This document shows positions 45,966 through 64,000 of a DNA stretch of 64,000 bases, one piece after another. Source of the DNA: Mojavia pulchra JT2-VF2. Its GTDB lineage: Bacteria > Cyanobacteriota > Cyanobacteriia > Cyanobacteriales > Nostocaceae. The position numbers and the translations under genes are program-made. The first letter of the stretch is position 1; each line of letters opens with the position of its first letter. The stretch is taken from the NCBI GenBank assembly GCA_019359325.1, contig JAHHHN010000001.1, positions 434,001-498,000 of the forward strand, in the 5' to 3' direction. Under the pieces are notes generated by a model. The model was not told the origin of the DNA. It saw only the letters and a list, made by a program, of their open reading frames with translations, and ran no database searches.

Positions 45966-46056
45966 ACCTGTCTTGAAAAGAAGGCAGAATGACAGGAGGC
46001 AGAGGGCAGAAGGAAGGAAAAAGTTTTCATCCTTAGTTTCAATCTCAGATTATAAA

Positions 46057-46087
46057 CTCTCTGCGCCTCTGCGACTCTGCGTGAAAC
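46057..46087. repeat. Dispersed CTCTGCG-type repeat between nirA and nrtA
   Basis: CTCTCTGCGCCTCTGCG and ACTCTGCG run together here and belong to the same repeat group as 32262-32296. Further on, CAACAACCAACAAC-type direct repeats fill 46155-46200 just before nrtA. Confidence 0.6.
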
Positions 46088-46209
46088 TTAAAATTCTTGC
46101 TTTCCAAATATTCCTGCAAGAAGTCTATTAAATGAGTGCCGAGTGGATAAAAAGCAACAACCAACAACAGCAACAACCAACAACTAAGTAACTAACAACT
46201 AAAGGAAAA

Positions 46210-47535
46210 ATGGCAAATCTTTCGCGTAGAAAATTTATTTTCACCACCAGTGCTGCGGCTGCTGCTTCTATCTTGGCTCATGGTTGCTCCTCTAATAATT
46301 CCAATTCAGCCACAACAGGTGGACAAGCACCTTCGGCTGCCTCAGCTGCCAACGTCTCTACAGCAGCTAACGCACCGAAAGTAGAAACAACCAAAGCAAA
46401 GCTAGGATTTATCCCTCTAACTGACGCTGCACCACTAATTATTGCTAAAGAAAAGGGCTTTTTTGCCAAATACGGCATGGCTGATGTTGAGGTCATCAAG
46501 CAAAAATCTTGGCCTGTCACCCGCGATAACCTGAAAATTGGTTCAGCTGGCGATGGGATTGATGGCGCACACATCCTCAGCCCCATGCCTTATTTAATGA
46601 CTATCAACGATAAAGTGCCCATGTATCTTTTGGCACGGTTAAATACCAACGGTCAGGCGATCTCTGTAGCTAATAAATTGAAAGATTTGAAAGTTGGCTT
46701 AGAGAGTAAGGGGTTGAAAGAGGCAGCTGAAAAAGCCAAAGCTGATAAACAATCCATGAAAGTTGCCATGACTTTCCCTGGTGGTACTCATGATTTGTGG
46801 ATGCGCTATTGGCTAGCGGCTGGCGGGATTAATCCCGATCAAGATGTGGTTTTAGAACCTGTACCACCACCACAAATGGTGGCGAATATGAAAGTTGGTA
46901 CAGTCGATGCCTTTTGTGTGGGAGAACCCTGGAATGCTCAATTGGTTAGCCAAAAGTTAGGTTATACAGCTTTAGTTACAGGCGAGTTGTGGAAAGACCA
47001 TCCAGAAAAAGCCTTTGCTATGCGTAAAGATTGGGTTGATAAAAATCCCAACGCTACCCAAGCACTTTTGATGGCAGTTCTAGAAGCTCAACAGTGGTGC
47101 GATAAGCCAGAAAACAAAGAGGAGATGTGCAAAATCTGCTCTGACCGCAAATACTTTAACGTTGCTGCCGCAGATATTTTAGAAAGGTCTAAGGGCAATA
47201 TTGACTACGGCGATGGACGCACGCAACAAAACTTCGCCAATAGTATGAAGTACTGGGCTAATAACGCTTCCTATCCTTACAAGAGCCACGATACTTGGTT
47301 TTTAACAGAAGAGATTCGCTGGGGTTATTTGCCAAAAGATACCAAAGTTAAAGAAATCGTCAATCAAGTAAACAAAGAAGACCTTTGGAAACAAGCAGCG
47401 AAAGCAATTAATGTACCTGCTTCTGAGATTCCTAGTAGTACTTCTCGTGGGGTTGAGACTTTCTTTGATGGTGTCAAATTTGACCCAGAAAAACCAGAAG
47501 AATATCTCAATAGTTTGAAAATTAAAAAAGTTTAA
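46210..47535 (+). CDS. nrtA: Nitrate/nitrite-binding lipoprotein NrtA
   Basis: NrtA is the periplasmic solute receptor of the nitrate/nitrite ABC transporter. The 441-residue protein has a twin-arginine-like signal (NLSRRKFIFTT) with a lipobox cysteine near residue 26 (AHGCSS), then a Ser/Ala-rich linker. The mature domain begins KAKLGFIPLTDAAPLIIAKEKGFFAKYG, with GTHDLWMRYWLAAGGINP and VDAFCVGEPWNAQ, characteristic of the NrtA/CmpA family. The related C-terminal domain of NrtC at 48512 shares these blocks. CmpA (bicarbonate) is the main alternative, but context settles on nitrate. Confidence 0.93.
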   Translation: MANLSRRKFIFTTSAAAAASILAHGCSSNNSNSATTGGQAPSAASAANVSTAANAPKVETTKAKLGFIPLTDAAPLIIAKEKGFFAKYGMADVEVIKQKSWPVTRDNLKIGSAGDGIDGAHILSPMPYLMTINDKVPMYLLARLNTNGQAISVANKLKDLKVGLESKGLKEAAEKAKADKQSMKVAMTFPGGTHDLWMRYWLAAGGINPDQDVVLEPVPPPQMVANMKVGTVDAFCVGEPWNAQLVSQKLGYTALVTGELWKDHPEKAFAMRKDWVDKNPNATQALLMAVLEAQQWCDKPENKEEMCKICSDRKYFNVAAADILERSKGNIDYGDGRTQQNFANSMKYWANNASYPYKSHDTWFLTEEIRWGYLPKDTKVKEIVNQVNKEDLWKQAAKAINVPASEIPSSTSRGVETFFDGVKFDPEKPEEYLNSLKIKKV

Positions 47536-47594
47536 TGATAGCTGCGATCGCTGCTTTTTGGCCCAACTAGAGTACAACAGGAGAAAGTAAAAAA

Positions 47595-48434
47595 ATGACA
47601 GCTATTGTAGGCAGCCGTATTAACAGAAAAAAGTCTCAAAATGCTATCAGTAAATTATTTTGGCAAAAGATTGCGCCGCCACTAGCAGCATTAGCTATTT
47701 TTCTAGTGATTTGGCAATTACTTTGTTTAAACCCTAACTTTAAATTACCTGGGCCAATAGAAACAATTACTGAAACTTGGAATCCTTTTATCATTCAGCC
47801 ATTTTTTGATAATGGTGAAAGTGATAAAGGCTTGGGTTGGCAAATACTTAGTAGTTTAGGAAGAGTAGGTTTGGGATTTTCCCTATCGGCAATTGTGGGA
47901 ATTGCCTTGGGAATTGTCATCGGCGCAAATTCATTACTCTTTAATGCTGTAGATCCCCTATTTCAAGTATTACGAACTGTACCGCCTCTAGCATGGCTAC
48001 CCATCTCACTGGCAGCATTCCAACAGGCTAATCCTTCAGCGATTTTTGTCATTTTCATTACATCTATTTGGCCAATTATTATCAACACCACAGTAGGTGT
48101 ACAACAAATTCCTCAAGACTACGTTAATGTTGCTAGGGTGTTACGTCTCAAAGGCGTAAAGTATTTCTTTAAAATAGTGTTTCCCGCCACTGTTCCTTAT
48201 ATCTTCACAGGCTTACGCATTGGTATTGGTTTATCTTGGTTAGCAATTGTTGCCGCGGAAATGTTAGTTGGTGGTGTAGGTATTGGTTCGTTTATTTGGG
48301 ATGCCTACAACACTACTACAGAAACAAACATGAGCGAGATTATTTTAGCCCTCGTCTACGTTGGTTTAGTTGGCTTGCTGTTAGATAGAATGGTAGCTTT
48401 TATCGCTAGCAAAGTTGTAGCAGAACAGAAGTAA
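47595..48434 (+). CDS. nrtB: Nitrate ABC transporter permease NrtB
   Basis: This 279-residue inner-membrane permease follows nrtA by 59 bases. It has five to six membrane segments (for example LAALAIFLVIWQLLC, LGFSLSAIVGIALGIVIGA, IFVIFITSIWPIIINTTVG). The EAA-loop region VARVLRLKGVKYFFKIVFPATVPYI contacts the ATPases NrtC and NrtD. It is homologous to CmpB, but its operon position identifies it as nitrate-specific. Confidence 0.93.
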   Translation: MTAIVGSRINRKKSQNAISKLFWQKIAPPLAALAIFLVIWQLLCLNPNFKLPGPIETITETWNPFIIQPFFDNGESDKGLGWQILSSLGRVGLGFSLSAIVGIALGIVIGANSLLFNAVDPLFQVLRTVPPLAWLPISLAAFQQANPSAIFVIFITSIWPIIINTTVGVQQIPQDYVNVARVLRLKGVKYFFKIVFPATVPYIFTGLRIGIGLSWLAIVAAEMLVGGVGIGSFIWDAYNTTTETNMSEIILALVYVGLVGLLLDRMVAFIASKVVAEQK

Positions 48435-48511
48435 TGAGAGGGCAGAGGGCAGAAGTATGAAGCTTTAGTCCTGCAAATAAGAAATGACGAATGACCAAGG
48501 ACTAATAACAA

Positions 48512-50500
48512 ATGACTACTTTTGTAGAAGTTGACCATGTTGACCGTGTATTTGAACTACCAAATGGTGGCAAATATATTGCTCTTAAAAATATTGAATT
48601 GAAAATCCAACAAGGGGAATTTGTTTCTCTAATTGGACATTCTGGTTGCGGTAAATCTACCTTGCTCAATATCATTGCAGGTTTAGATAGAGCCAGTATT
48701 GGCGGTGTAACTTTGGAAGGGCGAGAAGTTAAAGAACCAAGTCCAGATAGGATGGTAGTGTTTCAAAACTACTCGTTGCTTCCCTGGTTAACAGTACGGG
48801 AAAACATCGCTCTGGCCGTGGATGAAGTCTATAAGGATCAGCCCAAGGGTAAACGTCGCTTAATTGTCGAAGAACATATCGACATGGTAGGACTGCGCCT
48901 TGCAGCTAATAAACGTCCGAGCGAGTTATCTGGGGGGATGAAGCAACGGGTAGCGATCGCCCGCGCCTTGGCTACCCGTCCCAAGTTGTTACTGCTAGAC
49001 GAACCCTTTGGGGCGTTAGACGCCTTAACACGCGGTAGTTTGCAAGAACAACTGATGAAAATCTGCAACGAACATAACGTTACCTGCGTGATGGTGACAC
49101 ACGATGTCGATGAAGCGCTATTGTTGAGCGATCGCATCGTTATGCTCACCAATGGCCCAGAAGCACACATCGGGCAAATTCTAGAAGTCCCGATCCCCCG
49201 CCCTAGACAGCGCCTAGAAGTAGTAAATCATCCCAGCTATTACAATCTGCGGAACGAAATGATTTACTTCCTCAACCAGCAAAAACAGGCTAAGAAACGC
49301 AAAGCTGCACAGACTCAAGCACCAATCGTTGTATCCCGCAATGGCTTAGAAAAAGTCAATCTAGACATTGGCTTTTTACCCCTGACTGATGCCGCACCGT
49401 TAATCGTTGCTCAAGAAAAAGGCTTCTTTGCTCAGTACGGCTTAGAACAAGTCACCCTCAGCCGCGAAACTAGTTGGAAGGAAATCGCTAAAGGTGTGGG
49501 TACTGGCAGATTAGATGCAGCCCAGATGGTCGCTGGAATGCCTCTTGCCCTCACTTTAGGTGCTGGTGGTAAACCGTCGATTCCTGTAGTCAACGCCTTA
49601 AATCTTTCCCGCAACGCTAACGCCATCACCTTAAGCAAAAGATTGTATAGTCAAGGCGTGAGAAACCTGGCTGACTTAAAAACAGCAATTAATGCCTCTC
49701 CCGACCAAATTCTGACTTTGGGAATCGTACATCCCACATCAATGCAGAACTTAATCCTGCGTTACTGGCTGGCCGCTGGTGGGATCGATCCTGATAGAGA
49801 TGTCAGTCTGACGGTAATCCCACCAACAGAAATGGTTTCCCAACTTAAAGCCGGAAATATTGACGGTTACTGTGCTGGAGAACCCTGGAACTACCTTGCT
49901 GTTCATGAAGATATCGGTTTTGTTGCTGCTACCGCCCTAGAAATTTGGTCAGGACAGCCGAAAAAAGTTTTGGGAGTGCGGGAAGAGTGGGCGCAGCAGT
50001 ACCCAGAAACTTATCTTGCTTTGGTAAAAGCACTGTTAGAAGCCTGCAAATACTGCGACGACTTCCGCAATCGAGAAGAAATTCTGGAATTAATCTGCCG
50101 CCCTGAGTACTTGAATACCAATCCTGCATACGTCCGTCCTGGTTTTATCGATCCTTACGATCGCGGCAACGGTACAGAACCCCAGGAACTAGCAAGATAC
50201 AACCAGTTTTATCTCAATCAAACCAACTATCCCAACCGCACCGAACTTTTGTGGATGGTGACTCAGCTAGCACGTTGGGGTTTAGTAACCTTCCCCAAAA
50301 ATTGGGTGGAGGTAATTGACAGAGTTTGCCGCACGGACGTTTTTGGTGCTGCTGCACGCGACCTCGGCATCCTCGATATCGGACAGGACAACCCCATTCA
50401 TTTATTTGATGGTAAAGTTTTTAACCCTTCAAATCCCATAGAGTACCTCAACAGCTTGGAAATCAAACGACAAATCCGTATTGAAGAAGTATTTATTTAG
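48512..50500 (+). CDS. nrtC: Nitrate ABC transporter ATPase with NrtA-like regulatory domain
   Basis: NrtC is 662 residues, a fusion of an ABC ATPase (about 1-255: Walker A GHSGCGKST, signature LSGGMKQRVAIARAL, Walker B LLLLDEPFGALD) with a C-terminal NrtA-like solute-binding domain (about 285-655: GFLPLTDAAPLIVAQEKGFF, WLAAGGIDPDRDV, CAGEPWNYL). The C-terminal domain is known in this family to mediate ammonium-triggered inhibition of uptake rather than periplasmic binding. It pairs with NrtD as the heteromeric ATPase. Confidence 0.95.
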   Translation: MTTFVEVDHVDRVFELPNGGKYIALKNIELKIQQGEFVSLIGHSGCGKSTLLNIIAGLDRASIGGVTLEGREVKEPSPDRMVVFQNYSLLPWLTVRENIALAVDEVYKDQPKGKRRLIVEEHIDMVGLRLAANKRPSELSGGMKQRVAIARALATRPKLLLLDEPFGALDALTRGSLQEQLMKICNEHNVTCVMVTHDVDEALLLSDRIVMLTNGPEAHIGQILEVPIPRPRQRLEVVNHPSYYNLRNEMIYFLNQQKQAKKRKAAQTQAPIVVSRNGLEKVNLDIGFLPLTDAAPLIVAQEKGFFAQYGLEQVTLSRETSWKEIAKGVGTGRLDAAQMVAGMPLALTLGAGGKPSIPVVNALNLSRNANAITLSKRLYSQGVRNLADLKTAINASPDQILTLGIVHPTSMQNLILRYWLAAGGIDPDRDVSLTVIPPTEMVSQLKAGNIDGYCAGEPWNYLAVHEDIGFVAATALEIWSGQPKKVLGVREEWAQQYPETYLALVKALLEACKYCDDFRNREEILELICRPEYLNTNPAYVRPGFIDPYDRGNGTEPQELARYNQFYLNQTNYPNRTELLWMVTQLARWGLVTFPKNWVEVIDRVCRTDVFGAAARDLGILDIGQDNPIHLFDGKVFNPSNPIEYLNSLEIKRQIRIEEVFI

Positions 50501-50597
50501 TCAAGAGTCAAGGGTCAAGAGTAATTAATTATCCTCCTCATCTTCCTCTCTCTGCGTGAGGAAATTATAAATTCATCGAACAAAGCAAAAAAACATC

Positions 50598-51440
50598 ATG
50601 CAAACAGCAAAAAGAACAAACACCCAACTCAACCAACTACAAACACAAAAAGCAGAAAATTTTCTGGTGATTGAAGGCGTCAGCAAAATTTACCCCACTC
50701 CCGAAGGCCCTTACACGGTATTGGATGGCGTTGACCTAAAAGTTCGTGAAGGTGAATTTGTTTGCATAATTGGTCATTCTGGTTGTGGTAAATCAACCCT
50801 ACTCAACATGATTTCCGGGTTCAACACCCCTACTGATGGTGTAGTTCTCCTGCAAGACCAGCCGATCACCGAACCAGGCCCAGACCGGATGATGGTATTC
50901 CAAAACTACTGTCTTTTGCCTTGGTTGAGTGTCTTTGACAACGTTTACTTGGCTGTTGATTCGGTGTTTCCGAAAAAAACTCAGGCAGAAAAAAGAGCGA
51001 TCGTTAGAGAACATTTGGCAATGGTGGGGCTAACAGAAGCCGCAGATAAAAAACCGAGTCAGATTTCTGGGGGGATGAAGCAGCGAGTTGCGATCGCCCG
51101 CGCCCTCTCTATCCGTCCGCAAGTTCTGATTCTTGATGAACCCTTCGGTGCATTAGATGCGATCACTAAAGAAGAATTACAAGAAGAACTACTGCAAATC
51201 TGGCGCGATCATCAAGTCACCGTACTCATGATTACGCATGACATTGATGAGGCACTTTTCTTAGCCGATAGAGTTGTGATGATGACTAACGGGCCTGCTG
51301 CTCAAATTGGTGAAATCTTAGATATTCCTTTCTCCCGCCCCCGCAATCGTCGCCGCATCATGGAAGACCCGGAATACTATAACTTGCGGAACTATGCCCT
51401 AGACTTCTTGTATCGCCGTTACGCTCACGATGATGAGTAA
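50598..51440 (+). CDS. nrtD: Nitrate ABC transporter ATPase NrtD
   Basis: This 280-residue ATPase is the second nucleotide-binding subunit, without the extra domain of NrtC. Walker A GHSGCGKST, signature ISGGMKQRVAIARAL, Walker B LILDEPFGALDA and switch MITHDIDEAL are all standard. The N-terminal 28 residues are polar and Gln/Thr-rich and precede the conserved fold. It lies 97 bases after nrtC and 300 before nrtP. Confidence 0.94.
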   Translation: MQTAKRTNTQLNQLQTQKAENFLVIEGVSKIYPTPEGPYTVLDGVDLKVREGEFVCIIGHSGCGKSTLLNMISGFNTPTDGVVLLQDQPITEPGPDRMMVFQNYCLLPWLSVFDNVYLAVDSVFPKKTQAEKRAIVREHLAMVGLTEAADKKPSQISGGMKQRVAIARALSIRPQVLILDEPFGALDAITKEELQEELLQIWRDHQVTVLMITHDIDEALFLADRVVMMTNGPAAQIGEILDIPFSRPRNRRRIMEDPEYYNLRNYALDFLYRRYAHDDE

Positions 51441-51740
51441 AAACAATTAGCAAAATTCTTTGGCATCTATCTTTGAAAGTATGAATTTTAACGCATAGCT
51501 ATGATGCCGTTTTTACATTCATATCATCAAAATGTGATTGCAGATACAAATAAACTTGCTAGGTAATTTTAGTTTAGTATTAACAACAACTTACGCACTC
51601 CCTAAAATTTTTCTAATTAGGGAGTATGAATTTCAGCTTTAGAGTTAGCACAAATATCAAGAAATATCTGATCTGCTGAGGGTAATTACTTAATTACCCC
51701 TGTATTTTTCCATGCAGTTTTTTGACTGAGGAAGGTTTGA
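51441..51740. promoter_or_regulatory. Intergenic region between nrtD and nrtP with two inverted repeats
   Basis: Two palindromes occur in this 300-base gap. ACTCCCTAA (51597-51605) pairs with 51617-51625 around 11 bases. GGGTAATTA (51680-51688) pairs with TAATTACCC (51691-51699), 41 bases before the nrtP start. The first may end or attenuate the nrtABCD transcript. The second resembles an operator and contains GTA and TAC separated by 10 instead of 8 bases. No perfect NtcA site is present, so an independent nrtP promoter is possible but unproven. Confidence 0.5.
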
Positions 51741-53243
51741 ATGCTCAAAGGATTATTTTCATTCAGGGATCGCTATCGTATATTGCATCAGACTTGGTTT
51801 GCCTTTTTTCTCACCTTTGTCTGTTGGTTTAATTTTGCTCCCTTTGCGACCACTATTGGCAAGCAACTAGATTTAGCACCTGAGCAAATTAAAACTTTGG
51901 GCATTTGTAACCTTGCCCTCACAATTCCAGCACGGCTAATTATCGGTATGCTTCTGGATCGCTTTGGCCCCAGAATTACATACTCAATACTGTTAATGTT
52001 CGCTGCCGTTCCTTGTTTAGCTACGGCGTTTTCGCAAGACTTTAACCAACTAGTGATCAGCCGCCTACTGATGGGGATTGTTGGTTCTGGGTTCGTTGTG
52101 GGTATCCGCATGGTAGCTGAATGGTTCCCTCCAAAAGAGATGGGAAGTGCCCAAGGTATTTATGGCGGTTGGGGTAATTTTGGGGCTTTTGGTGCAGAGT
52201 TTGCCCTACCAATGATTGCCGTTGCTACTAGCTTTTTGGCTGGTGGTGCTTCCAATTGGCGGTTGGCGATCGCCCTTACAGGTATCATTGCTGCTATATA
52301 CGGTGTAATTTATTACAATACAGCCCAAGATACACCTGCTGGCAAAGTCTACAATAAACCCAAGAAAAATGGCGCTTTGGAAGTAACTAGCGTTAAAAGC
52401 TTTTGGGCAATGATTCTCTCAAATTTTGGTTTGATTTTTGCCTTAGGTTTGTTGGCTTGGCGCTTAGAACAGAAGAATATTCACTTTCTTAATCAAACCC
52501 AAATGTATTTGGCTTGGGTGTTGTTAGCAGGATTGTTTGCTTACCAAACTTACAAAGCTTATCAAGTTAACAAAGAATTACTAATTGGCAAGAAAACTTA
52601 CGCGCCTGCACAGCGTTATCAGTTTGGTCAAGTTGCTTTACTCGAATTCACTTACGTAACTAATTTTGGTAGTGAGTTAGCAGCCGTTTCTATGCTACCT
52701 GCCTTCTTTGAAAAAACCTTTGGTTTAGAGCATGTAGTAGCAGGAATGATCGCCGCTACTTATCCCTTTTTAAACTTAGTTTCTCGCCCCAGCGGTGGCT
52801 TAATTTCGGATAAATTTGGCTCACGTAAGTGGACAATGACAATTATCAGCGCTGGCATTGGTATTGGCTATTTAATAATACATTTTATTAACAGTAGCTG
52901 GCCAATTCCTTTAGCGATCGCAGCGACTATGTTTGCTGCTTACTTTGCCCAAGCTGGCTGCGGTGCAACCTACGGTATTGTACCTCTAATTAAAAAAGAA
53001 GCTACCGGGCAAATCGCCGGCAATGTTGGAGCTTACGGTAATTTCGGTGGCGTAATTTATCTGACAATTTTCAGCTTAACTGATGCATCAACACTCTTTA
53101 GCACAATGGGTATAGCAGCTATAATTTGCGCTTTCATGTGTGGTTTCTTCCTCAAAGAACCAAAAGGTTCATTTGCATCTGGTGATGAAGTTGAATCCCA
53201 AGAAACAGAAGTCAATCGATCTTCTTTATTAGTAGAAGAATAA
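51741..53243 (+). CDS. nrtP: MFS nitrate/nitrite permease NrtP (NarK-type)
   Basis: This 500-residue major-facilitator permease has about 12 membrane segments. The NNP-family nitrate signatures are present in both halves: YGGWGNFGAFGAEF near residue 142 and AGNVGAYGNFGGV near 423. The substrate-binding arginines are expected in IPARLIIGMLLDRFGP and NLVSRPSGGLISDKFG. It follows nrtD by 300 bases in the same orientation. NrtP usually replaces NrtABCD in cyanobacteria. Here both occur in one cluster. The start ATG has a GAGGAAGG ribosome site. Confidence 0.94.
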   Translation: MLKGLFSFRDRYRILHQTWFAFFLTFVCWFNFAPFATTIGKQLDLAPEQIKTLGICNLALTIPARLIIGMLLDRFGPRITYSILLMFAAVPCLATAFSQDFNQLVISRLLMGIVGSGFVVGIRMVAEWFPPKEMGSAQGIYGGWGNFGAFGAEFALPMIAVATSFLAGGASNWRLAIALTGIIAAIYGVIYYNTAQDTPAGKVYNKPKKNGALEVTSVKSFWAMILSNFGLIFALGLLAWRLEQKNIHFLNQTQMYLAWVLLAGLFAYQTYKAYQVNKELLIGKKTYAPAQRYQFGQVALLEFTYVTNFGSELAAVSMLPAFFEKTFGLEHVVAGMIAATYPFLNLVSRPSGGLISDKFGSRKWTMTIISAGIGIGYLIIHFINSSWPIPLAIAATMFAAYFAQAGCGATYGIVPLIKKEATGQIAGNVGAYGNFGGVIYLTIFSLTDASTLFSTMGIAAIICAFMCGFFLKEPKGSFASGDEVESQETEVNRSSLLVEE

Positions 53244-53252
53244 GCGAAAACT

Positions 53253-53281
53253 AAGATGAAGAGTATTTTATTCTTCATCTT
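53253..53281 (+). terminator. Hairpin after nrtP
   Basis: AAGATGAAGA (53253-53262) pairs with TCTTCATCTT (53272-53281), ten bases after the nrtP stop. No strong T-run follows, so it may be an mRNA end or partial terminator before narB. Confidence 0.5.
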
Positions 53282-53473
53282 ATACTTATGTATTTAGTAA
53301 ATCAGCAGTAGCTTATAAAAATGTGTTTGTTTATTATTTATATATAAAGAACAAAATAATCACATAAAGAATACTCATAATTTTGCAAAATTGAAATCAT
53401 TAATTACAGCAACTTTTGATCTACAACCTGCTACTTAAACATTTAAACAATTGGCGAATACGGTGTACCTGCC

Positions 53474-55681
53474 ATGAGCGAATTTACCAAAACTTTATGT
53501 CCTTACTGTGGTGTTGGATGTGGACTCGAAGTTTCACCCCCAGCCCAACACGGCAAAGCGACTCATCGTGATAGTCAAGGAACTCCAATTTGGCGGGTGC
53601 GGGGAGACAAAGCCCATCCATCAAGCCAGGGTATGGTTTGTGTCAAAGGTGCGACGATCGCTGAGTCTTTGGATAAGAACAGACTACATTACCCAATGGT
53701 GCGGGACTCTTTAGATCAGGAGTTCCGGCGCGCCAGTTGGGATGAAGCTTTTGATATCATCACCAAACGTATTCAAACAGTGCGCTTCACCCAAGGGCCA
53801 GAAGCTATATGTATGTATGGTTCTGGTCAATTTCAAACTGAGGATTATTACATCGCCCAGAAACTGATGAAAGGATGTCTGGGTAGCAATAATTTTGATG
53901 CCAATTCTCGTTTATGTATGTCTAGCGCTGTAGCTGGGTACATTCAAAGCTTTGGCGCAGATGGCCCTCCCTGTTGCTACGATGATTTAGAGTTAACCGA
54001 CTGTGCATTTTTAATTGGTACGAATACCGCTGAGTGTCACCCGATTGTTTTCAATCGCTTGGCGAAGTACCACAAAAAAAATCGTAAAGTCAAAATGATT
54101 GTGGTTGATCCCCGGCGCACACCAACCGCAGAAGCCGCTGATTTACATTTAGCTATTCGTCCTGGTACAGATATCGACTTATTAAACGGTATTGCTCACT
54201 TGTTGATGCGCTGGAACTACATTGATGTCGGATTCATTGACGACTGTACCAACAACTTTCCTGCTTATGCTGAAGTTATTCGCCACTATGCCCCGAATGT
54301 AGTAGCTTATCGATGTGGGATAAGTATTGCAGATTTAGAAACAGCGGCTCGCTACTGGGGGCAATCTCAGCGGGTACTGTCTTTATGGTCGATGGGTGTG
54401 AATCAATCAAGCGAAGGTACGGCTAAGGTCAGAACTATTATTAACCTGCACTTGATGACCGGACAGATTGGTAAGCCTGGGGCGGGGCCTTTTTCGCTGA
54501 CAGGACAGCCAAATGCTATGGGAGGGAGGGAAGCTGGAGGTTTAGCGCACTTATTACCTGGTTATCGCTTGGTAAAAAATCCCCAGCACCGTGCAGAAGT
54601 TGAAGATTTTTGGGGACTGAAGCGGGGGCAGATTTCACCCAATCCCGGTCTGACGGCTTGGGATATGATTACTGGGTTGGAAAATGGCGCAGTGGGTTTA
54701 CTGTGGATTGCTGCTACCAACCCAGCTGTCAGTATGCCAGATTTAGAGCGGACGAAGAAGGCGTTGTTGCGATCGCCCTTCACTGTCTACCAAGATGCTT
54801 ATTACCCGACAGAAACCGCTGCTTATGCTCACGTCTTGCTACCTGCTGCTCAGTGGGGCGAGAAAACTGGGGTAATGACCAATTCGGAACGCACAGTTAC
54901 CCTGTGTCAAGCATTCCGCCAACCACCAAGAGAAGCGAAACCAGATTGGGAAATTTTCGCCGAAGTAGGGCGCAGATTAGGCTTTGTCAAAGAATTTGCT
55001 TTTGCTAACTCTGCTGAAGTCTATGCTGAATTTGTCCAACTAACTCGCCACCGTCCCTGCGAGATGACGGGTATTAGTCATGAGCAATTACAAGCACAAG
55101 GCCCCACGCAATGGCCTCATCCAGAAAAGGACGCGGGGCCATTTCCCTTCTCCGTATATCCTAAGTATGGTAAGCGCCTCTACACCGATTTACGCTTTCA
55201 TACTCCTGATGGTCGTGCGCGGTTTGGGGCGTATCACTCACGAGGGCTGGCAGAACCACCAGACCCGGATTATCCCTTTGTGCTGACCAATGGGCGACTT
55301 TACGGACACTGGCATACCCAAACTCGTACTGGTCGAATTGATAAAATTCGACAAATGCATCCCGAACCGTTTATTGAGATTCATCCTCGTGATGCTGCTT
55401 TTTTAGGGATTACAGATAACCACTGGCTCGAAGTGCGATCGCGTCGGGGTAAAGCTAAGTTCCCGGCAAAAGTCACAAAAGCGATCGCCCCTGGTACGGT
55501 GTTTGTTCCTATGCATTGGGGGGCGTTGTGGGCAAATGATGCTGAAGCTAATGCTCTCACCCATCCAGAATCTTGCCCCGATTCATTGCAACCAGAATTA
55601 AAAGCTTGTGCAGTGCAGGTAATGCCAATTTCTGTGGAAGTTCCACACAAAAATTATCAACTTCAGTCCTCGCAATGGTAA
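53474..55681 (+). CDS. narB: Ferredoxin-nitrate reductase
   Basis: NarB reduces nitrate to nitrite with two electrons from ferredoxin. At 735 residues it is normal size. The N-terminal [4Fe-4S] cluster motif [12 protein letters not shown] with the later Cys in QGMVCVKGA is present, and the bis-molybdopterin guanine dinucleotide domains follow ([12 protein letters not shown], whose Cys is the molybdenum ligand, then [11 protein letters not shown] and [12 protein letters not shown]). It is the last reductase gene of the cluster, 230 bases downstream of nrtP. Confidence 0.95.
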
Positions 55682-56002
55682 GCTGCTACATATACCATTA
55701 AATAAGTAATTGGTAATTCAGTTCATAGGTAATAGTCAATAGTTGCTATTATTTTTTCTAATCTTGTAAAAACACGGGTAACTGTATCCTTATTTTATAA
55801 GTATGACCGATCAATTCTCACTGAATTATTACTAGCAAAAAAGCAAAAACTCCAATAAAAGTTAATTTCCTGCCGTTAGCCTTAGCTATGAAAAAACACA
55901 AATCGCGGCACTGTGTTTTTTGCTAATCCTCTAGATTTATCTACGAGGGTTTTCTTTTATATTTTTGCTAATTACTTGCTATTTAAAAAGAGGGGGCAGC
56001 AC
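55682..56002. other. Intergenic region between narB and the PsiE-like gene
   Basis: About 320 bases, AT-rich, with no supported gene or NtcA site. An open frame from 55913 precedes the PsiE start but has no conserved content. Confidence 0.5.
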
Positions 56003-56461
56003 ATGAGAAGGCTAGTCAAGGGAATTAAAGAACTTGCTAAAGACGATAACTTTATGCACTCAATTGAAAAAATAGAAGTGCTAGTCTCGAAAGTGTTATC
56101 CCTATTGATGGTGCTGGTAATTTTGGCTGCGATCGGAGATTTAGTGATTTTCCTGATGAAAGAGTTATTTACCACACCATACGGGAGATTCAATACTACA
56201 TTATTTAAAATTTTTGGTTTATTTTTAAATATTTTAATTGCATTAGAAATTTTAGAGAACATCACTGCTTACTTGCGAAAACACGTTGTTCAAGTTGAGT
56301 TAGTTATTGTTACTTCTTTAATTGCTGTGTCGAGAAAAATTATTATTCTTGACTTAGAAAAAGTAACAGGAATTGATATCATTGGATTGGGAGTTGCCGT
56401 TCTGGGTCTGTCAATTAGTTATTTGCTCATCCGTTTTAGTAATTCTAGAAAACATAATTAA
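56003..56461 (+). CDS. PsiE-family membrane protein
   Basis: The ATG at 56003, after a purine-rich GAGGGGGC, gives 152 residues. An upstream GTG-start extension to 55913 has no conserved content. Four hydrophobic helices are visible (VLSLLMVLVILAAIGDLVIFL, FKIFGLFLNILIALEIL, VQVELVIVTSLIAVS, IIGLGVAVLGLSISYLLI), with LENITAYLRKH in between, the pattern of the PsiE (phosphate-starvation-inducible E) family of unknown function. It lies between narB and narM and may be cotranscribed with narM. Confidence 0.78.
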   Translation: MRRLVKGIKELAKDDNFMHSIEKIEVLVSKVLSLLMVLVILAAIGDLVIFLMKELFTTPYGRFNTTLFKIFGLFLNILIALEILENITAYLRKHVVQVELVIVTSLIAVSRKIIILDLEKVTGIDIIGLGVAVLGLSISYLLIRFSNSRKHN

Positions 56462-56611
56462 TACCATATTAATATTGAAGATGCATATTATTAGCCTTCT
56501 GTGGCAGTTTTTGTTCTGTAGTTATCGGCTGGAAGCTTGAAGTGATAATGTGCAGATCACATAAAATTAGTATGTCATTTTCTATATAAATGAGTGTTGC
56601 AATATAAAATT

Positions 56612-57064
56612 ATGGTAACTTTCTTTGAATTTGAAGCAGATTTTGTTGATTCTCTTCGCTGTATACCGATGCAGGTACGCTACAAACTAGATACCTGTGG
56701 TATCAAGCTAAAATTATCTGATTGGAATCAGATGTCTCAAGCTGATCGTCAGGCTTTAGTTGAATTACCTTGCACTACAGAAACAGAAATTCAATCTTAT
56801 CGGCAAGATCTCGAACAGTTAATTTTAAATCGCACTGGTGTACCAGCTACACATTTGCCTATTGAGCCTGAACCTGCATGGATTGACTCTACAAATATCC
56901 CAACTAGTGTTCAAGAGCAAGCTCAAGCAATAGATATCACCCTTACACCTCAACAGTGGGCATCTTTAACTCCTTTACAGCGTTTTGCCCTGATTAAACT
57001 CAGTCGTTCTGGGCATGAAAATAAAAACTTTCCCAAAGCAATAAGAGAGTTTAATCTGCTGTAA
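56612..57064 (+). CDS. narM: Nitrate reductase-associated protein NarM
   Basis: ATG at 56612 gives 150 residues (a TTG at 56594 is less likely). The protein matches the nitrate-reductase-associated family: FEFEADFVDSLRCIPMQVRYKLD, LKLSDWNQMSQADRQALVELPC, and the second repeat of the fold LTPQQWASLTPLQRFALIKLSRSGHEN. NarM is required for nitrate reductase activity in Synechococcus elongatus, probably in cofactor insertion or maturation of NarB. Its position two genes after narB supports this. Confidence 0.9.
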   Translation: MVTFFEFEADFVDSLRCIPMQVRYKLDTCGIKLKLSDWNQMSQADRQALVELPCTTETEIQSYRQDLEQLILNRTGVPATHLPIEPEPAWIDSTNIPTSVQEQAQAIDITLTPQQWASLTPLQRFALIKLSRSGHENKNFPKAIREFNLL

Positions 57065-57628: not shown

Positions 57629-58996
57629 ATGACAGGCAAAAACGCAAGACATAATGCATTTCTGCGGCTAGTGTCTGGTAATGGAGCACCTTATAGGTCA
57701 GAATCCCGCTACTCGCTGCTCCCTAGTAAAGAGGTGGTAATTGGACGCGACCCCAGCTGTCAAGTTGTCTTGGATGCCATGATGTATCGGATGGTATCCC
57801 GTCGTCATGCTGTGATTCGTCCCCTCTCTTCATCTCCAGATGGCAAATTTAGCTGGCTAATTTGTGATTTGAATAGTGCTAATGGCACTTATTTAAATGG
57901 ACACCGCCTACAAGGTTGTCAAGAATTACATGCAGGCGATCGCATTTCTTTGGGTGCTGATGGACCGCAATTTGTGTTTGAACACGAATTTGTCTCCCCA
58001 GTTACGATCATGACCAGGCCAGCCACACCACTGCCATCAGCAGGTTACCCCCAAGGGCAATTAAAACCTGATTCGGTGAGCTTTACTCAACTGTTTCCCA
58101 TTATTTCTACTGGCAAAGATTTAACTCGTAAAGCTTACCTCGTACCGGGAATTCTGACAGTAGTATTCGTGGTGCTAATGTTTGCTACGGTAGGTCAGCC
58201 GCAAGCTAATCAAGTTATTGTAGCGAGCTACATAGCATTTGCTGCCTATTATTTTGTTTACCAACTGTGCGGTAAACCGAAGCCTTGGTGGGTACTCATG
58301 TCAGTAGCATTGGGTACGTCGTTTATTTTGCTCAGTCCCCTATTAGATTTATTTATCTTTGTGTTTCGTGGCATTCTGCCTGGTAACTTGCCTTCAAATC
58401 AGGATTCGATCACCTTTACAGAATTGCTGGTGCGAATGTTTTTTGGTGCTGGGTTGATGGAAGAATTACTAAAGGCTTTACCTGTATTGGCAGTGTTGTT
58501 AATTGCTATTAAATTGCCCTCACCTTGGCGAGAACGCATAGGCGTTTGGGAACCTCTAGATGGGATTCTCTTAGGAACAGCTTCTGCTGTGGGTTTTACC
58601 CTGTTAGAAACTCTCGGACAATATGTGCCAGTAATTACACAAAATGTTGCCCAACAGTCAGGAGTAGGGACTGGTCAATTGGTGGGATTGCAATTGCTCA
58701 TTCCGCGAATTTTAGGCTCTGTAGCAGGACACATGGCTTACAGCGGTTATTTGGGGTATTTTATCGGGTTGGCTGTCCTCAAGCCCCGCCTGAGTTGGCA
58801 AATTCTCCCCATTGGTTATATTAGCGCTGCTGCACTCCATGCTTTGTGGAACGCTACCGGATCTATCAATGCTTTACTGTTGGTGGTTGTTGGCGTGTTG
58901 TCGTATGCATTTTTGATGGCGGCAATTCTTAAGGCACGTGCTTTATCACCAACGCGATCGCAGAATTTCGCTACCCGCTTTCTCGGCCCTAAATAA
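57629..58996 (+). CDS. FHA domain fused to PrsW-type intramembrane protease
   Basis: A 455-residue fusion. Residues about 30-125 are an FHA domain, which binds phosphothreonine: VVIGRDPSCQVVLD (Arg40), MVSRRHAVI (Ser57, His60) and LNSANGTYLNG (Asn85, Asn90). Then about eight membrane segments carry the PrsW motif set: EELLK (Glu278, Glu279, Lys282), a second Glu at 327 in TLLETLG, His368 in AGHMAYSGYLGY and His404 in AALHALWNATG. PrsW proteases cleave membrane proteins, for example anti-sigma factors, so cleavage here is probably gated by phosphorylation. Substrate unknown. FHA-PrsW fusion is unusual and the neighbouring genes are also FHA and phosphatase genes. Confidence 0.88.
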   Translation: MTGKNARHNAFLRLVSGNGAPYRSESRYSLLPSKEVVIGRDPSCQVVLDAMMYRMVSRRHAVIRPLSSSPDGKFSWLICDLNSANGTYLNGHRLQGCQELHAGDRISLGADGPQFVFEHEFVSPVTIMTRPATPLPSAGYPQGQLKPDSVSFTQLFPIISTGKDLTRKAYLVPGILTVVFVVLMFATVGQPQANQVIVASYIAFAAYYFVYQLCGKPKPWWVLMSVALGTSFILLSPLLDLFIFVFRGILPGNLPSNQDSITFTELLVRMFFGAGLMEELLKALPVLAVLLIAIKLPSPWRERIGVWEPLDGILLGTASAVGFTLLETLGQYVPVITQNVAQQSGVGTGQLVGLQLLIPRILGSVAGHMAYSGYLGYFIGLAVLKPRLSWQILPIGYISAAALHALWNATGSINALLLVVVGVLSYAFLMAAILKARALSPTRSQNFATRFLGPK

Positions 58997-59280: not shown

Positions 59281-59925
59281 TTAGGATTCTGGCTGAAAGC
59301 TATTTAGTCTGGTGAGGGCGTAGTAAGAAATTGCTAAACTAACCTTTGCTTGCTCGACTTCCGATAAAGATGTCCACTCGCGGTTACCCAAGTTACTCAT
59401 TACACATACCACATTTTGTGGTTCGCCACTACGCATAGCATAGGCATAAGGACGCGCTAAAACCAATAAATCTTCTGCGCCCCAAGTAGGCAGTACATCT
59501 TGAACACAGTGAACGAGTTGCTCACCAATTGATTGTTGGGAAGTAAAAATTTCAGCAGCTTTGTGAGCGATCGCATTTAGCCAGCCTTGGGGTACAGCTG
59601 AAGCAAAAGATGTTTGTAAGCTTTCTTGCAAAGCCATGACAATCTGGCTGATATTTGTCTTAGAGTCTGAAGCAGTAGATTTTTTTTCCCAAAGATTATC
59701 TAACTGGCTATAAAAAACTTGCGATCTTGCCGTAAGTTCTTGCTCAAGCACATCATCGATAAGAAACTGCTGTTCTAGTTGGCAAAAATAAGCTTCTGAT
59801 TTCTCATCAGCTGGATTCCAGGGGTAACTAGCATCCTCAGCTTCTAGTAAAGTTGCTAAAAAATCTAATTCTACTTGAGATGGTAAAGATGAGATAGTCT
59901 CTGAATTGTTGATTTGGTGAGTCAT
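59281..59925 (-). CDS. Uncharacterised protein downstream of CHAT-FHA gene
   Basis: A 214-residue acidic soluble protein with no recognised motif. It has helical N- and C-terminal parts (SQVELDFLATLLEAED; VEQAKVSLAISYYALTRL) and a middle containing AEDLLVLARPYAYAMRSG. It starts 150 bases after the CHAT-FHA gene on the same strand and is likely cotranscribed. Its function is presumably connected to that gene and the PP2C gene, but this is only position-based. Confidence 0.6.
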   Translation of the reverse strand: MTHQINNSETISSLPSQVELDFLATLLEAEDASYPWNPADEKSEAYFCQLEQQFLIDDVLEQELTARSQVFYSQLDNLWEKKSTASDSKTNISQIVMALQESLQTSFASAVPQGWLNAIAHKAAEIFTSQQSIGEQLVHCVQDVLPTWGAEDLLVLARPYAYAMRSGEPQNVVCVMSNLGNREWTSLSEVEQAKVSLAISYYALTRLNSFQPES

Positions 59926-60075
59926 TTGTCGCCTCCAGACTAATTATTTAGCAGTATTGACAGCTACAACTGTCAGAATCACATTTCCGCAAAAAAAAGT
60001 GAATTTTGCCTATGGTGAGAATAAATTTGTGAGGCTGTTGCTCATGACTGAAATTGCAATTATGCAATACCTAAG

Positions 60076-61665
60076 TTAAGAGCCTTCGATAATAAACTGC
60101 CATATCTCACCTCTAGAACTACCAAACTTTAATTGCATTCCTGATGTTAAAGGTACTTCCTCTCGGAGGATTTGTTGCCAACCATTAGAACTGAAAATCC
60201 AGGTTGTCCCGTAGGTAGATAAATCTTGTAAGTAATAAGTTCTTGCCGGAGCAGTGTCAGTGAAAGTATTCCGACATAAGATTTCAGCATGGCGTTTAGA
60301 AACAGAGGGTTCTGGGATGACAATATCATTGTCTTTTGTGCGACCAATCCGAGTCACTCCAGAACGTAATACCCAGGTTTTACCACCTGCTGATAGCGAT
60401 CGCAAAGAGGCTGTAGGAAATGAAGCTACCACACTCGGAATAGTAGTTTCTGGTAATTCTGTAATTCCTTCATCAAAACTTTTAATCAATTCGCCATTAA
60501 AATCTGGATGTAGGTAGAGGACAGGTAAAGTCCATGCTGGTTGATTGAACTTATATACTGTTAACAGTTCTTGCCTAGCTTCTGCCACAGCCTCATCAAT
60601 TGGCTTGCGCGATCGCAAAGCTTCCGTAAAGACTTGAATAAAACTGTGGCTTTCTTCGTCAGCAATCTCATCGCGCATTCCCAAAACCGCAGGTACGCCA
60701 TGACGAATCAGCACTTCTGCCAAACTGCTAGAGGGTATAGCTTGATTATTTATAGCAGCTGGTTGTGCGCCCCAGCAGGCATTGAAAACCGCCAGTTTTA
60801 CACCAGTACGAGTCAATACTTGGGCCAGTTCTATGCCATTGAGGGTCATGCTTGGGCGCAAAAACAGTAATCCTCCATCTGGATCTGGCAGACCGTGACC
60901 AGCGTAAAAGAAGACATTGTATGCTTTAGTTTCTAACTCCTGAATCAACTCTTGTGGGCTTGGTTGCAGAAGTGTATGTACCATGCAGGGTGCATATCCC
61001 TGAGAATTGCTACCTAAAGGCCCTGCATTGGCGAGAGTTTTTTCTAAGATTGCCGCTTCTTTTTCCAGTTGCAAATTTTCATCTTGTCCTAAAACCAGCA
61101 GAATATTTAAAGCTTGGTCTGTTCGCAAATAAGGCAATGATTCAACTTCACTGGTAGTGCGACTAAATAGTAAATCTTGAGATAGAGACATCGCCGATTG
61201 GCCAGGCTCACGTTGCATAATTTCCCAAGGTAGGGCGATGAGATCCGGGTCACGAATTTCCAGTCGAAAGCGCAGACGTGTATGCTGCCCCATAGCAATG
61301 CCACGACTTCGTTCTAAACTTCCGAGAATTTGCCCATTAAATAACCAACGCCATAAATGAATTCCCAAGTATTGCATTAAGCGGCTACTGTAGCCTCCTG
61401 GCTGACCCGAAGGCAATGAAACCAAGTTCACTGGTAATGGATTTGTTTGTAGAGGCGTTGAGCGAGAGTAAATACTTAAGGGGCTATGACCAGCAAACAT
61501 CTGCTGCCATTCTTGCCAAACTTGAGAGAGTTCCACAGGCCATATACAATCATGCAAAACATAACCACTGGGATAGGGAGCCTTAACCACCCATATGGCG
61601 AAGTTATCAGAGCTAGTATTAATCAAACGGGCGATCGCCAGGTTCAGGCATGGCAATGGATTCAT
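60076..61665 (-). CDS. CHAT caspase-like protease domain with C-terminal FHA domain
   Basis: This 529-residue protein combines a CHAT-type caspase-fold domain (about 185-400) with a C-terminal FHA domain (about 425-525). The catalytic pair is His257 in FFYAGHGLPD and Cys297 in LAVFNACWGAQ, the usual CHAT dyad. The FHA part reads RIGRTKDNDIVIPEPSVSKRHAEI, with Arg, Ser and His in place. The N-terminal about 180 residues (WLFNGQILGSLERSRGIAMG, PDLIALPWEIMQ) resemble the region that precedes CHAT in cyanobacterial signalling proteins. A protease switched by phosphothreonine binding is a reasonable guess, with the adjacent PP2C as eraser. Activity is not proven. Confidence 0.88.
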   Translation of the reverse strand: MNPLPCLNLAIARLINTSSDNFAIWVVKAPYPSGYVLHDCIWPVELSQVWQEWQQMFAGHSPLSIYSRSTPLQTNPLPVNLVSLPSGQPGGYSSRLMQYLGIHLWRWLFNGQILGSLERSRGIAMGQHTRLRFRLEIRDPDLIALPWEIMQREPGQSAMSLSQDLLFSRTTSEVESLPYLRTDQALNILLVLGQDENLQLEKEAAILEKTLANAGPLGSNSQGYAPCMVHTLLQPSPQELIQELETKAYNVFFYAGHGLPDPDGGLLFLRPSMTLNGIELAQVLTRTGVKLAVFNACWGAQPAAINNQAIPSSSLAEVLIRHGVPAVLGMRDEIADEESHSFIQVFTEALRSRKPIDEAVAEARQELLTVYKFNQPAWTLPVLYLHPDFNGELIKSFDEGITELPETTIPSVVASFPTASLRSLSAGGKTWVLRSGVTRIGRTKDNDIVIPEPSVSKRHAEILCRNTFTDTAPARTYYLQDLSTYGTTWIFSSNGWQQILREEVPLTSGMQLKFGSSRGEIWQFIIEGS

Positions 61666-61789
61666 TAAATCAAAAGGTATTAAATAACAAATAATTTCAA
61701 ATAAAAATTTTCCAATGTAAAAATATCTACATTGTATTGTAAGTTTTTTTCGCTGGTTATTACCTGTATTATTTCAGGTTTTTACCAAT

Positions 61790-64000
61790 TTATGGAGTAT
61801 TCGATTTGGTTGGACTAGTATCACTTTGTGGATTTGGTACAGGTGTCTGGTTATCTAGCGATGGCGAGACATCATCACATGCACTCGGCTGTTTTGCTGA
61901 TAAAACATTGACCTTATATTTTTTTAGTTGAGATTGGGAGAATTGAATTGGTGCTAATTTCTCTACTTGTTGCGAAGAGTTAGAATTATCTGGTTTATTC
62001 ACTGATGACTGAGCTGGTGTATCTTGGGGGCACAAGCGCAGTTGCACGAAAAAATCTCTAGAACCCGCTTTAGGATTTGGTTTTTTATCGATAACTTGTA
62101 AAAGGCTACCAGAGGGTAATAATTCTTGGTTATTTAGGCGGATTGGGGCCTGGGTTTGAATTACCCACCCAGAATCAAGGTTGTCAATAGTTCGCGGTGC
62201 AGTTGCTTCTGTGGTAGTTGGCTGCGGAGTTGCGGTTGGGCTAGTCACAACTGGAGTTTCACCGGATGGCGATCGCATCTGCATTACTAAGTATCCCAAA
62301 TAACCGGCTGCTAAAACTAATATTAACGGAACTATAAAATTTAGTGGTAGTTGGGCAGTTTTGGCAGGCTTAGTTTCTGGGATTACTTGTGTTTTCTGAT
62401 TGGGGTTACCTAGGAGTGTTCCTTGTACTGTTCTGGACGGAGCATTAGTAGCTTTACCCAGGAAACTGTCTGGTATGACCGCTGCCAGGCTTGAGTTTGG
62501 TTCAGAGTATCGAACTTGACAATGTACTAAGGCAATAGTGACATTATCATGTCCATTTTTAGTGTTAGCAATTTCTACTAATTTTTCAGTAGCATGTGCT
62601 ACATCGGTTTCCCCTGTCAAAATCGGTAAGACTTCTGTTTCCCAATAGTCCTCAACGCGGTCAAAGTCGCTCAAACCATCGGATGTAAGTAGGAAAACAG
62701 CATCTTCATCCAGAATAAACCTCTGGGCAGTGGGATGTAATGAAGTACTGGGACTCATTCCTAAAGCCTGGACGAGAGAGCCAGATCCACCTTGTAATAT
62801 TGCTTCACGGTAGACAGCATAGCCTAACCGTACCTCACGCGAAGCTACATCATCATCAAGGGTAACTTGATAACAACCGTGGCGCGTAATCCAGTAGGCA
62901 CGGCTATCACCGACGTGGGTAATGTACATTTCATGGGCAATTGGTAATGCCATTACCAAGGTGGTGCCCATGCGTTGACGTCCCTGCCGATTTTCGCCGT
63001 CATTGCGTTGGCTAATTTTGTCATTTACAACTGCCACTGCTGATTCTAAGTCATTTAGCAGCAGTGAAGGGTCTATGTGGTCATACGGAACTTTTGTGAG
63101 TTCATGTACCTGATGCTGAATCGTTTCAATTGCTAAATTTGATGCTACATTGCCTCCCTCGTGCCCACCGATGCCGTCACAGACAATGGCTAGGGCGGTC
63201 GCCTGTGGAGGTTTACTTACTAAGGTACCACTGGGAGGGTAACAGGCATCTTCATTACGTTGGCGACTGGGGCCAGTGTCAGTTTTAGTGAAAATTTTGA
63301 TAGTAGACTTTTGCGATCGCCCTAATTGAGCTAGTCCTTGATCTAAGACTGTAATTAATTGATCAGGTGAATTGATCTGTTGCTGAATTAAAGCATTACT
63401 AATTTTGTTGATAAGTTCAGCTATAGCTGGTTTTGCCTCTCTGTGCAATTGCTGCCAAAATTCTCCTAATTGAGGTAAGCCTGGTGTTGTTGAGGAGTCA
63501 ACACGCAATTCTAACAAGCGTACTAACGACCCTTCTACCCTTAACAAATATGGGTCTAGTAAGCTAGAGGCCACACCTTCACTTGCAAATGGATGCCAAA
63601 GATGAGCTAACTGCCATAGCCAATTGAGTTGGCGCATTGATGTAGCGTCACGCCAAGCACTGATTAACTCGCTACACAGTTGCACTTGTAGCGCTGTACC
63701 ATCGGTCAGTATTGGGGGTTTTTCTAAAAGTAATATGTCTTTACGAGAACGACCATCGGTTACAGGTATTACTCCATATACCTGCGGTACGTGTAATCTG
63801 TAAGGAATAAGTCTTAGATAAGCTCTAATTGCCGACGAATTATCTAATTCAGGTGTTTGCGGAACTAACCCAGGCTTAGTATCTAAAACAACAGATTTAT
63901 TGATCACTAAATAGCGCTCGTCCAAGATTTCTCCGGGAGTGGCAACACTCAGGCCATCTCCCTCAGCCCAGAGGTAATGCTTGGGTAGAGGTGTGGAGCA
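61790..64000 (-). CDS. PP2C-type serine/threonine phosphatase, 5' end outside window
   Basis: The frame is open to the window edge, so the N-terminus is cut. The first visible residues (CSTPLPKHYLWAEG) look like the end of a zinc-finger-type start. The TTG at 63925 is therefore not the real start. The PP2C domain has all metal and catalytic motifs: RNEDA, CDGIGGHEGGNVA, GTTLVMA, HVGDSRAYWI, LLTSDGLSDF and NGHDNVTIALV. It then has a Pro/Thr-rich linker, a membrane segment (NFIVPLILVLAAGYLGYLVM) and an extracytoplasmic tail. It probably removes phosphates from targets in this signalling neighbourhood. Cognate kinase not in window. Confidence 0.88.
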   Translation of the reverse strand, partial: CSTPLPKHYLWAEGDGLSVATPGEILDERYLVINKSVVLDTKPGLVPQTPELDNSSAIRAYLRLIPYRLHVPQVYGVIPVTDGRSRKDILLLEKPPILTDGTALQVQLCSELISAWRDATSMRQLNWLWQLAHLWHPFASEGVASSLLDPYLLRVEGSLVRLLELRVDSSTTPGLPQLGEFWQQLHREAKPAIAELINKISNALIQQQINSPDQLITVLDQGLAQLGRSQKSTIKIFTKTDTGPSRQRNEDACYPPSGTLVSKPPQATALAIVCDGIGGHEGGNVASNLAIETIQHQVHELTKVPYDHIDPSLLLNDLESAVAVVNDKISQRNDGENRQGRQRMGTTLVMALPIAHEMYITHVGDSRAYWITRHGCYQVTLDDDVASREVRLGYAVYREAILQGGSGSLVQALGMSPSTSLHPTAQRFILDEDAVFLLTSDGLSDFDRVEDYWETEVLPILTGETDVAHATEKLVEIANTKNGHDNVTIALVHCQVRYSEPNSSLAAVIPDSFLGKATNAPSRTVQGTLLGNPNQKTQVIPETKPAKTAQLPLNFIVPLILVLAAGYLGYLVMQMRSPSGETPVVTSPTATPQPTTTEATAPRTIDNLDSGWVIQTQAPIRLNNQELLPSGSLLQVIDKKPNPKAGSRDFFVQLRLCPQDTPAQSSVNKPDNSNSSQQVEKLAPIQFSQSQLKKYKVNVLSAKQPSACDDVSPSLDNQTPVPNPQSDTSPTKSNTP

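Follow-up and report, generated by a model that had tools for sequence, protein, structure and literature searches.

A sister lineage of HetF with an FHA domain, encoded beside a PP2C phosphatase and a small helical protein: a candidate case of phospho-controlled proteolysis in cyanobacteria

A cyanobacterial gene block encodes a PP2C phosphatase, a protein combining a CHAT and an FHA domain (CHAT-FHA), a protein of 214 residues (U214) and, adjoining them, a PrsW-type protease with an FHA domain (FHA-PrsW). CHAT-FHA is, as judged from its sequence, a caspase-like protease of the HetF type and belongs to a clade that is sister to HetF, a cyanobacterial protease that acts in cell division and in the development of heterocysts. 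The best explanation that we can offer for the block, held tentatively and with slightly less than even confidence, is a phospho-docked HetF-type protease that would be opposed by PP2C and would have U214 as partner or substrate. Neither the CHAT-FHA protein nor the gene block was found described in open-licence papers; to our knowledge, no phosphorylation input to HetF-like CHAT proteases is known. A widespread sister of HetF, an invariant set of phosphate-binding FHA residues, a neighbouring phosphatase and a co-inherited U214 now provide named residues and genes with which to ask whether bacteria use Ser/Thr phosphorylation to direct caspase-like proteolysis, and the promoter-like element of U214 is a regulatory handle that can be tested directly.

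The window, that is the whole stretch of 64,000 nucleotides analysed, corresponds to G000:C3:434001-498000 of a cyanobacterial genome of 8.19 Mb. All four genes are intact, and the ORFs and Pfam agree with the earlier note on a minus-strand series of PP2C, CHAT-FHA and U214, separated by gaps of 124 and 150 bp; FHA-PrsW, which adjoins the series, is on the plus strand and lies tail to tail with U214, so that it is convergent and not co-directional (Table 1). Beyond position 64000, where the same note had advised looking, the PP2C gene starts 105 nt outside the window (G000:C3:498105) and encodes a full protein of 771 aa. It is also correct that the window holds no kinase gene: Hanks-type kinases give 54 matches in the genome, of which two are on the same contig, both far outside the window. 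Kinases are thus plentiful in trans, but none is close to the block. CHAT matches in the host genome number 48. A nitrate assimilation cluster (window 44382-57064; nirA, nrt transporter genes, an MFS transporter and narB, by resemblance to the eye) adjoins the block, and a Nitr_red_assoc protein (PF09655) is also found beside it.

Table 1. Position of genes, domains and the promoter-like element in the window.
Feature	Position	Strand	Size	Basis
FHA-PrsW	57629-58996	+	455 aa	Pfam PrsW 2.1e-36 and FHA 1e-18
U214	59281-59925	-	214 aa	ORF list
Bipartite promoter-like element upstream of U214, TTGCGGAA-N16-TGTAGC	59963-59992	-		Conservation
CHAT-FHA	60076-61665	-	529 aa	ORF list; Pfam CHAT 1.6e-18 and FHA 3.6e-14
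FHA domain of CHAT-FHA, residues 438-515	60121-60354	-		Pfam, alignment, conservation
Active-site stretch of CHAT-FHA, His257 (60895-60897) to Cys297 (60775-60777)	60775-60897	-		Alignment, conservation
PP2C, open at window edge	61790-64000	-	C-terminal 736 of 771 aa	Pfam PP2C_2 7.3e-11

The kinship of CHAT-FHA with HetF is carried by the protease domain. CHAT-FHA scores 67.6 bits against Pfam CHAT (PF12770; cut-off 24), and its best NCBIfam match is the HetF equivalog NF045509 (9.7e-45), in the CHAT region only and with 153.2 bits, below the curated full-length cut-off of 1200. In many genomes the second-best protein among the relatives is HetF itself; of eight such proteins tested, two are over the cut-off and the others score 637-938 bits. 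A careful tree of the CHAT domain, which took in many other CHAT proteins of the host genome, places CHAT-FHA outside the HetF clade as a separate sister clade (CHAT-FHA clade 99/99, HetF clade 95/88, joint clade 94/89), and a quick tree of all rows agrees on the HetF/CHAT-FHA clade (SH-aLRT 97). The quick tree also sets a long-branch group beside CHAT-FHA; these are CHAT proteins of the host genome of about 780 aa (L204-L208), with the motifs WDILFFAGHS..FNSCDGL, and their long branch lies beside the HetF/CHAT-FHA clade.

HetF (NF045509; Alr3546 of Anabaena PCC 7120) and CHAT-FHA, both cyanobacterial, have in common a HetF-type CHAT domain with the His and Cys in YxGHx..GG and FNxCxG, whereas THG..LSAC is the typical CHAT motif of the host genome, present in most of its CHAT proteins outside the HetF group. 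They differ in length (about 830 versus 529 aa) and in architecture, since HetF has a C-terminal TM/TPR region and CHAT-FHA has in that place the FHA domain, with no TM-like segment predicted in the protein. His257 and Cys297, proposed earlier as the catalytic pair, are invariant in 98/98 orthologues, from close to distant families, and the proposal stands.

The other half of CHAT-FHA is also strictly conserved. The FHA residues Gly441, Arg442, Ser456 and His459 are invariant in the 98 orthologues, but the usual FHA Asn (before GT) is Tyr or Phe, once His, in all of them; phosphopeptide binding may therefore be altered, and the peptide specificity of CHAT-FHA likely differs from that of classical FHA domains. 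FHA-PrsW conserves the FHA Arg, Ser, His and Asn in 80/81 sequences each, the remaining one being a gap, and its residues Glu278, Glu279, Lys282, His368 and His404 in 80-81/81. It is thus like the PrsW intramembrane proteases (PF13367) in the conserved Glu-Glu, Lys and His, and differs from them by the N-terminal FHA domain; no anti-sigma gene was recognised beside it.

PP2C is composed of an N-terminal Cys pattern like a zinc ribbon, a region of about 230 aa, the PP2C domain and one TM-like segment, and the tail after this segment is likely extracytoplasmic. The protein resembles PRK14559 and Stp1, both below cut-offs, and its metal-binding Asp positions are conserved in 86-87/88 sequences. 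As the catalytic and metal-ligand residues are conserved, and the FHA residues too apart from the Asn of CHAT-FHA, the protease, phosphatase and phosphate-binding functions of the block are likely active. Residues 30-270 (L003:7791-10106) have by eye the look of a degenerate kinase, with SLLDPYLLRVEGSLVRLLEL at a place like that of the catalytic loop, and PP2C paralogues share this region in almost every genome of the order. A pseudokinase was considered for it and discarded: no profile match was obtained against 22 kinases of the host genome, the model is poor (pLDDT 48) and it has no fold match. In two relatives (L088, L128) PP2C is doubled in tandem ahead of CHAT-FHA.

Known phospho-switches of FHA proteins, such as PpkA-PppA-Fha of the T6SS and the mycobacterial PknB-PstP-FHA proteins, share with the block a PP2C and clients with FHA domains; the block differs in having no kinase or secretion apparatus, and here FHA is fused to proteases. 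The phospho-controlled proteolysis proposed in the earlier note gains from the conserved neighbourhood of two FHA proteases and a phosphatase and from the strict conservation of their residues, while the view of the four genes as one unit is weakened.

U214 has nothing over cut-off in Pfam, NCBIfam or PADLOC. In a search confined to the phylum Cyanobacteria, it was found in several orders of the cyanobacterial class, with a variable linker between its N- and C-terminal parts. The AlphaFold model is all-helical (pLDDT 70), confident from about residue 90 and mostly at 80-90 in the C-terminal half; no TM-like segment is predicted, and no PDB fold matches the model at E<=0.001. Mcl-1 and VP30, the top matches, have E>1 and were dismissed as noise. 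U214 evolves faster than its neighbours (mean distance 0.50 versus 0.21 for CHAT), and where it stands alone its contexts contain no recurrent partner. Six genomes of one family (f18) have U214, PP2C and PrsW in place with CHAT-FHA missing between them; U214 is therefore not merely a substrate of CHAT-FHA, at least there, and it remains a candidate partner or substrate of this protease on the strength of its genomic association.

This association was examined in 149 genomes of the order, scored for CHAT-FHA orthologues and U214. CHAT-FHA is present in 102 and U214 in 109 of them; 99 have both, 3 only CHAT-FHA, 10 only U214 and 37 neither, kinship between the genomes being ignored, and small genomes are without both. 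HetR is found in 81/102 genomes with CHAT-FHA and in 6/47 without it (again raw counts that ignore kinship); we take the HetR-bearing genomes here to be mostly filamentous lineages. Adjacency counts are lower bounds because of draft contig ends. CHAT-FHA and U214 are adjacent in 61/99 genomes, in 17 families and always co-directional; CHAT-FHA and PP2C in 45/97, also always co-directional; U214 and PrsW in 44/69, always on opposite strands and also where CHAT-FHA is elsewhere. PP2C is not adjacent to CHAT-FHA in 52/97 genomes that have the latter, a figure inflated by contig breaks. Among the Nostocales loci, 72/80 have all four genes singly and 2 more have a doubled PP2C, the remainder being mostly cut contigs. 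The arrangement PP2C, CHAT-FHA, U214 is also kept in genomes that lie outside this order but within its class (L295, L296, L298), and thus the block is old.

The synteny that the earlier note had asked for across cyanobacteria consequently has two sides: the gene order recurs in many families, but in many families the block is also broken up. Scattering or independent expression, which according to that note would count against a common pathway, is in part what is seen for U214 and PrsW, because PrsW is convergent, U214 has an element of its own and the block is often broken. Moreover NdhM and peptide deformylase, without evident link, are further persistent neighbours, so that synteny alone is not proof of function and can be inertia. 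Partial correlations of the distance matrices are 0.51 for CHAT-U214, 0.57 for CHAT-PP2C and -0.16 for U214-PrsW; these are weak, and their rows are not independent.

The element upstream of U214 is bipartite. CGGAA-N15..18-TGTAG is found upstream of 133/134 U214 genes at <=1 mismatch (118 exact; about 2 in shuffles), even where U214 stands apart from the other three genes, while upstream of CHAT, PP2C or PrsW genes it gives 0-1 match. Its spacer is identical in 75/76 close relatives, and an Rfam search returned no match. Having a conserved element of its own, U214 would be under its own transcriptional control, whatever the read-through from CHAT-FHA, and a simple operon was discarded as the sole view. 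The -35 box of the GGAA type suggests an ECF-type sigma factor. A promoter of the sigG type was discarded, since the upstream region of the sigG-like gene is RpoE-like (GGAACTT..TCTAA) and does not have TGTAG.

In the mechanism that we propose, CHAT-FHA would be a soluble paralogue of HetF and would serve, as a caspase-like cysteine protease, in a regulatory pathway that cyanobacteria inherit vertically. Through the FHA domain it would dock to a protein phosphorylated on Thr by a Hanks kinase whose gene lies in another part of the genome, and the membrane-anchored PP2C would strip the phosphate, thereby releasing or resetting CHAT-FHA. U214, under its own conserved promoter, would be a cytosolic partner, more probably substrate or adaptor than enzyme, and FHA-PrsW would be a second phospho-addressed protease in the neighbourhood, perhaps with the same kinase signals. 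HetF has PatU3 as a cleavage substrate and is active at the divisome (PMC12288457, PMC8406250), and we therefore propose control of septum or envelope growth or of cell state as the process, not abortive defence. What the block shares with the HetF-PatU3 pathway is a protease of the HetF family and, as its proposed target, a small regulatory protein; a difference is that PatU3 is encoded with hetZ. HetF is a proteolytic link between cell division and cell fate in cyanobacteria. A bolder form of the proposal, which we regard as doubtful, is that most filamentous cyanobacteria have a second HetF-family pathway, where the phospho-docked paralogue would cut U214 or be gated by it, PP2C would reset it, and the synthesis of U214 would be set by a dedicated promoter conserved class-wide, possibly of the ECF-sigma type.

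The main rival to the phospho-docked protease is that the four are separately regulated housekeeping genes, still close together because an ancestral cyanobacterial gene order has so far not dissolved; CHAT-FHA would act alone as a HetF-like regulator, and the jobs of PP2C, U214 and PrsW would be unrelated. The convergent FHA-PrsW, the separate element of U214, the persistence of NdhM and peptide deformylase, the scattering of the block in many families and the survival of U214 without CHAT-FHA in f18 all speak for it; we consider it rather unlikely, because the constant co-directional adjacency of CHAT-FHA and U214 in 17 families, the near-identical pattern of their presence and the partial correlation of their distances exceed plain neighbourhood. 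PrsW is the site-1 protease of the anti-sigma factor RsiW in B. subtilis, and by this analogy U214 might instead be the regulated output, a factor for the envelope or for stress that is perhaps transcribed with an ECF-type sigma, and its turnover would be controlled by CHAT-FHA, PP2C and PrsW. A GGAA-type element that only U214 has of the four genes, the placement of some other such sites upstream of predicted secreted-protein or lipoprotein genes, and the adjacency of U214 and PrsW that outlasts the departure of CHAT-FHA would fit such a role. Against it, the element is unlike the region upstream of sigG in the host genome, an intramembrane protease would find no TM-like segment to cleave in U214, and the own genome has few other sites, in numbers close to background. 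We judge this alternative improbable.

Defence, which the earlier note had included among its guesses together with a gasdermin analogy, finds no support in the comparison. In CHAT/gasdermin systems, cleavage by the CHAT protease leads to cell killing; similarly, an activated CHAT-FHA might cut U214, and the product would kill or arrest the infected cell. Craspase, with its CHAT protease, is a precedent of activated cleavage (PMC9729208), the gene of a small protein adjoins that of the protease, and U214 evolves fast. Nevertheless, CHAT-FHA is sister of HetF, which leaves the gasdermin and defence reading unsupported; it shares the CHAT superfamily with TPR-CHAT of Craspase (type III-E CRISPR) and with CHAT-gasdermin systems, but has different branch motifs and no TPR, defence context or gasdermin-like partner, U214 being without Pfam family, TM-like segment or gasdermin-like fold match. 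PADLOC gave no match for any of the four proteins, the plasmid collection none for CHAT-FHA or U214, and the viral contigs searched contained no relative of CHAT-FHA. The block is chromosomal, and CHAT-FHA is an old gene present in most HetR-bearing genomes, with a distribution that is not mobile or patchy as in defence islands. We regard a defence or cell-death module as very improbable; the block looks like housekeeping or developmental signalling, and of the processes named earlier, differentiation fits the kinship with HetF.

Some further observations concern the element of U214. Its strict matches across the 149 genomes lie at U214 in 68/127 cases, the rest being mixed, and a large regulon was discarded because the own genome has 5 strict matches versus 3 for reversed-pattern controls. 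TTRCGGAA-N16-TGTAGY occurs upstream of genes for predicted lipoproteins or secreted proteins (L300:1501-1528, L326, L333, L336, L337), and one genome (G024; L327, L328) has two such sites ahead of TIR-like genes; these other sites possibly form one small regulon. Finally, GTAGCTGTCAATAC (window 59954-59967, minus strand) overlaps the element and conforms to GTAN8TAC, the consensus of NtcA sites, a pattern present exactly in 48/74 related CHAT-U214 intergenic regions, and this NtcA-like site may tie U214 to nitrogen status.
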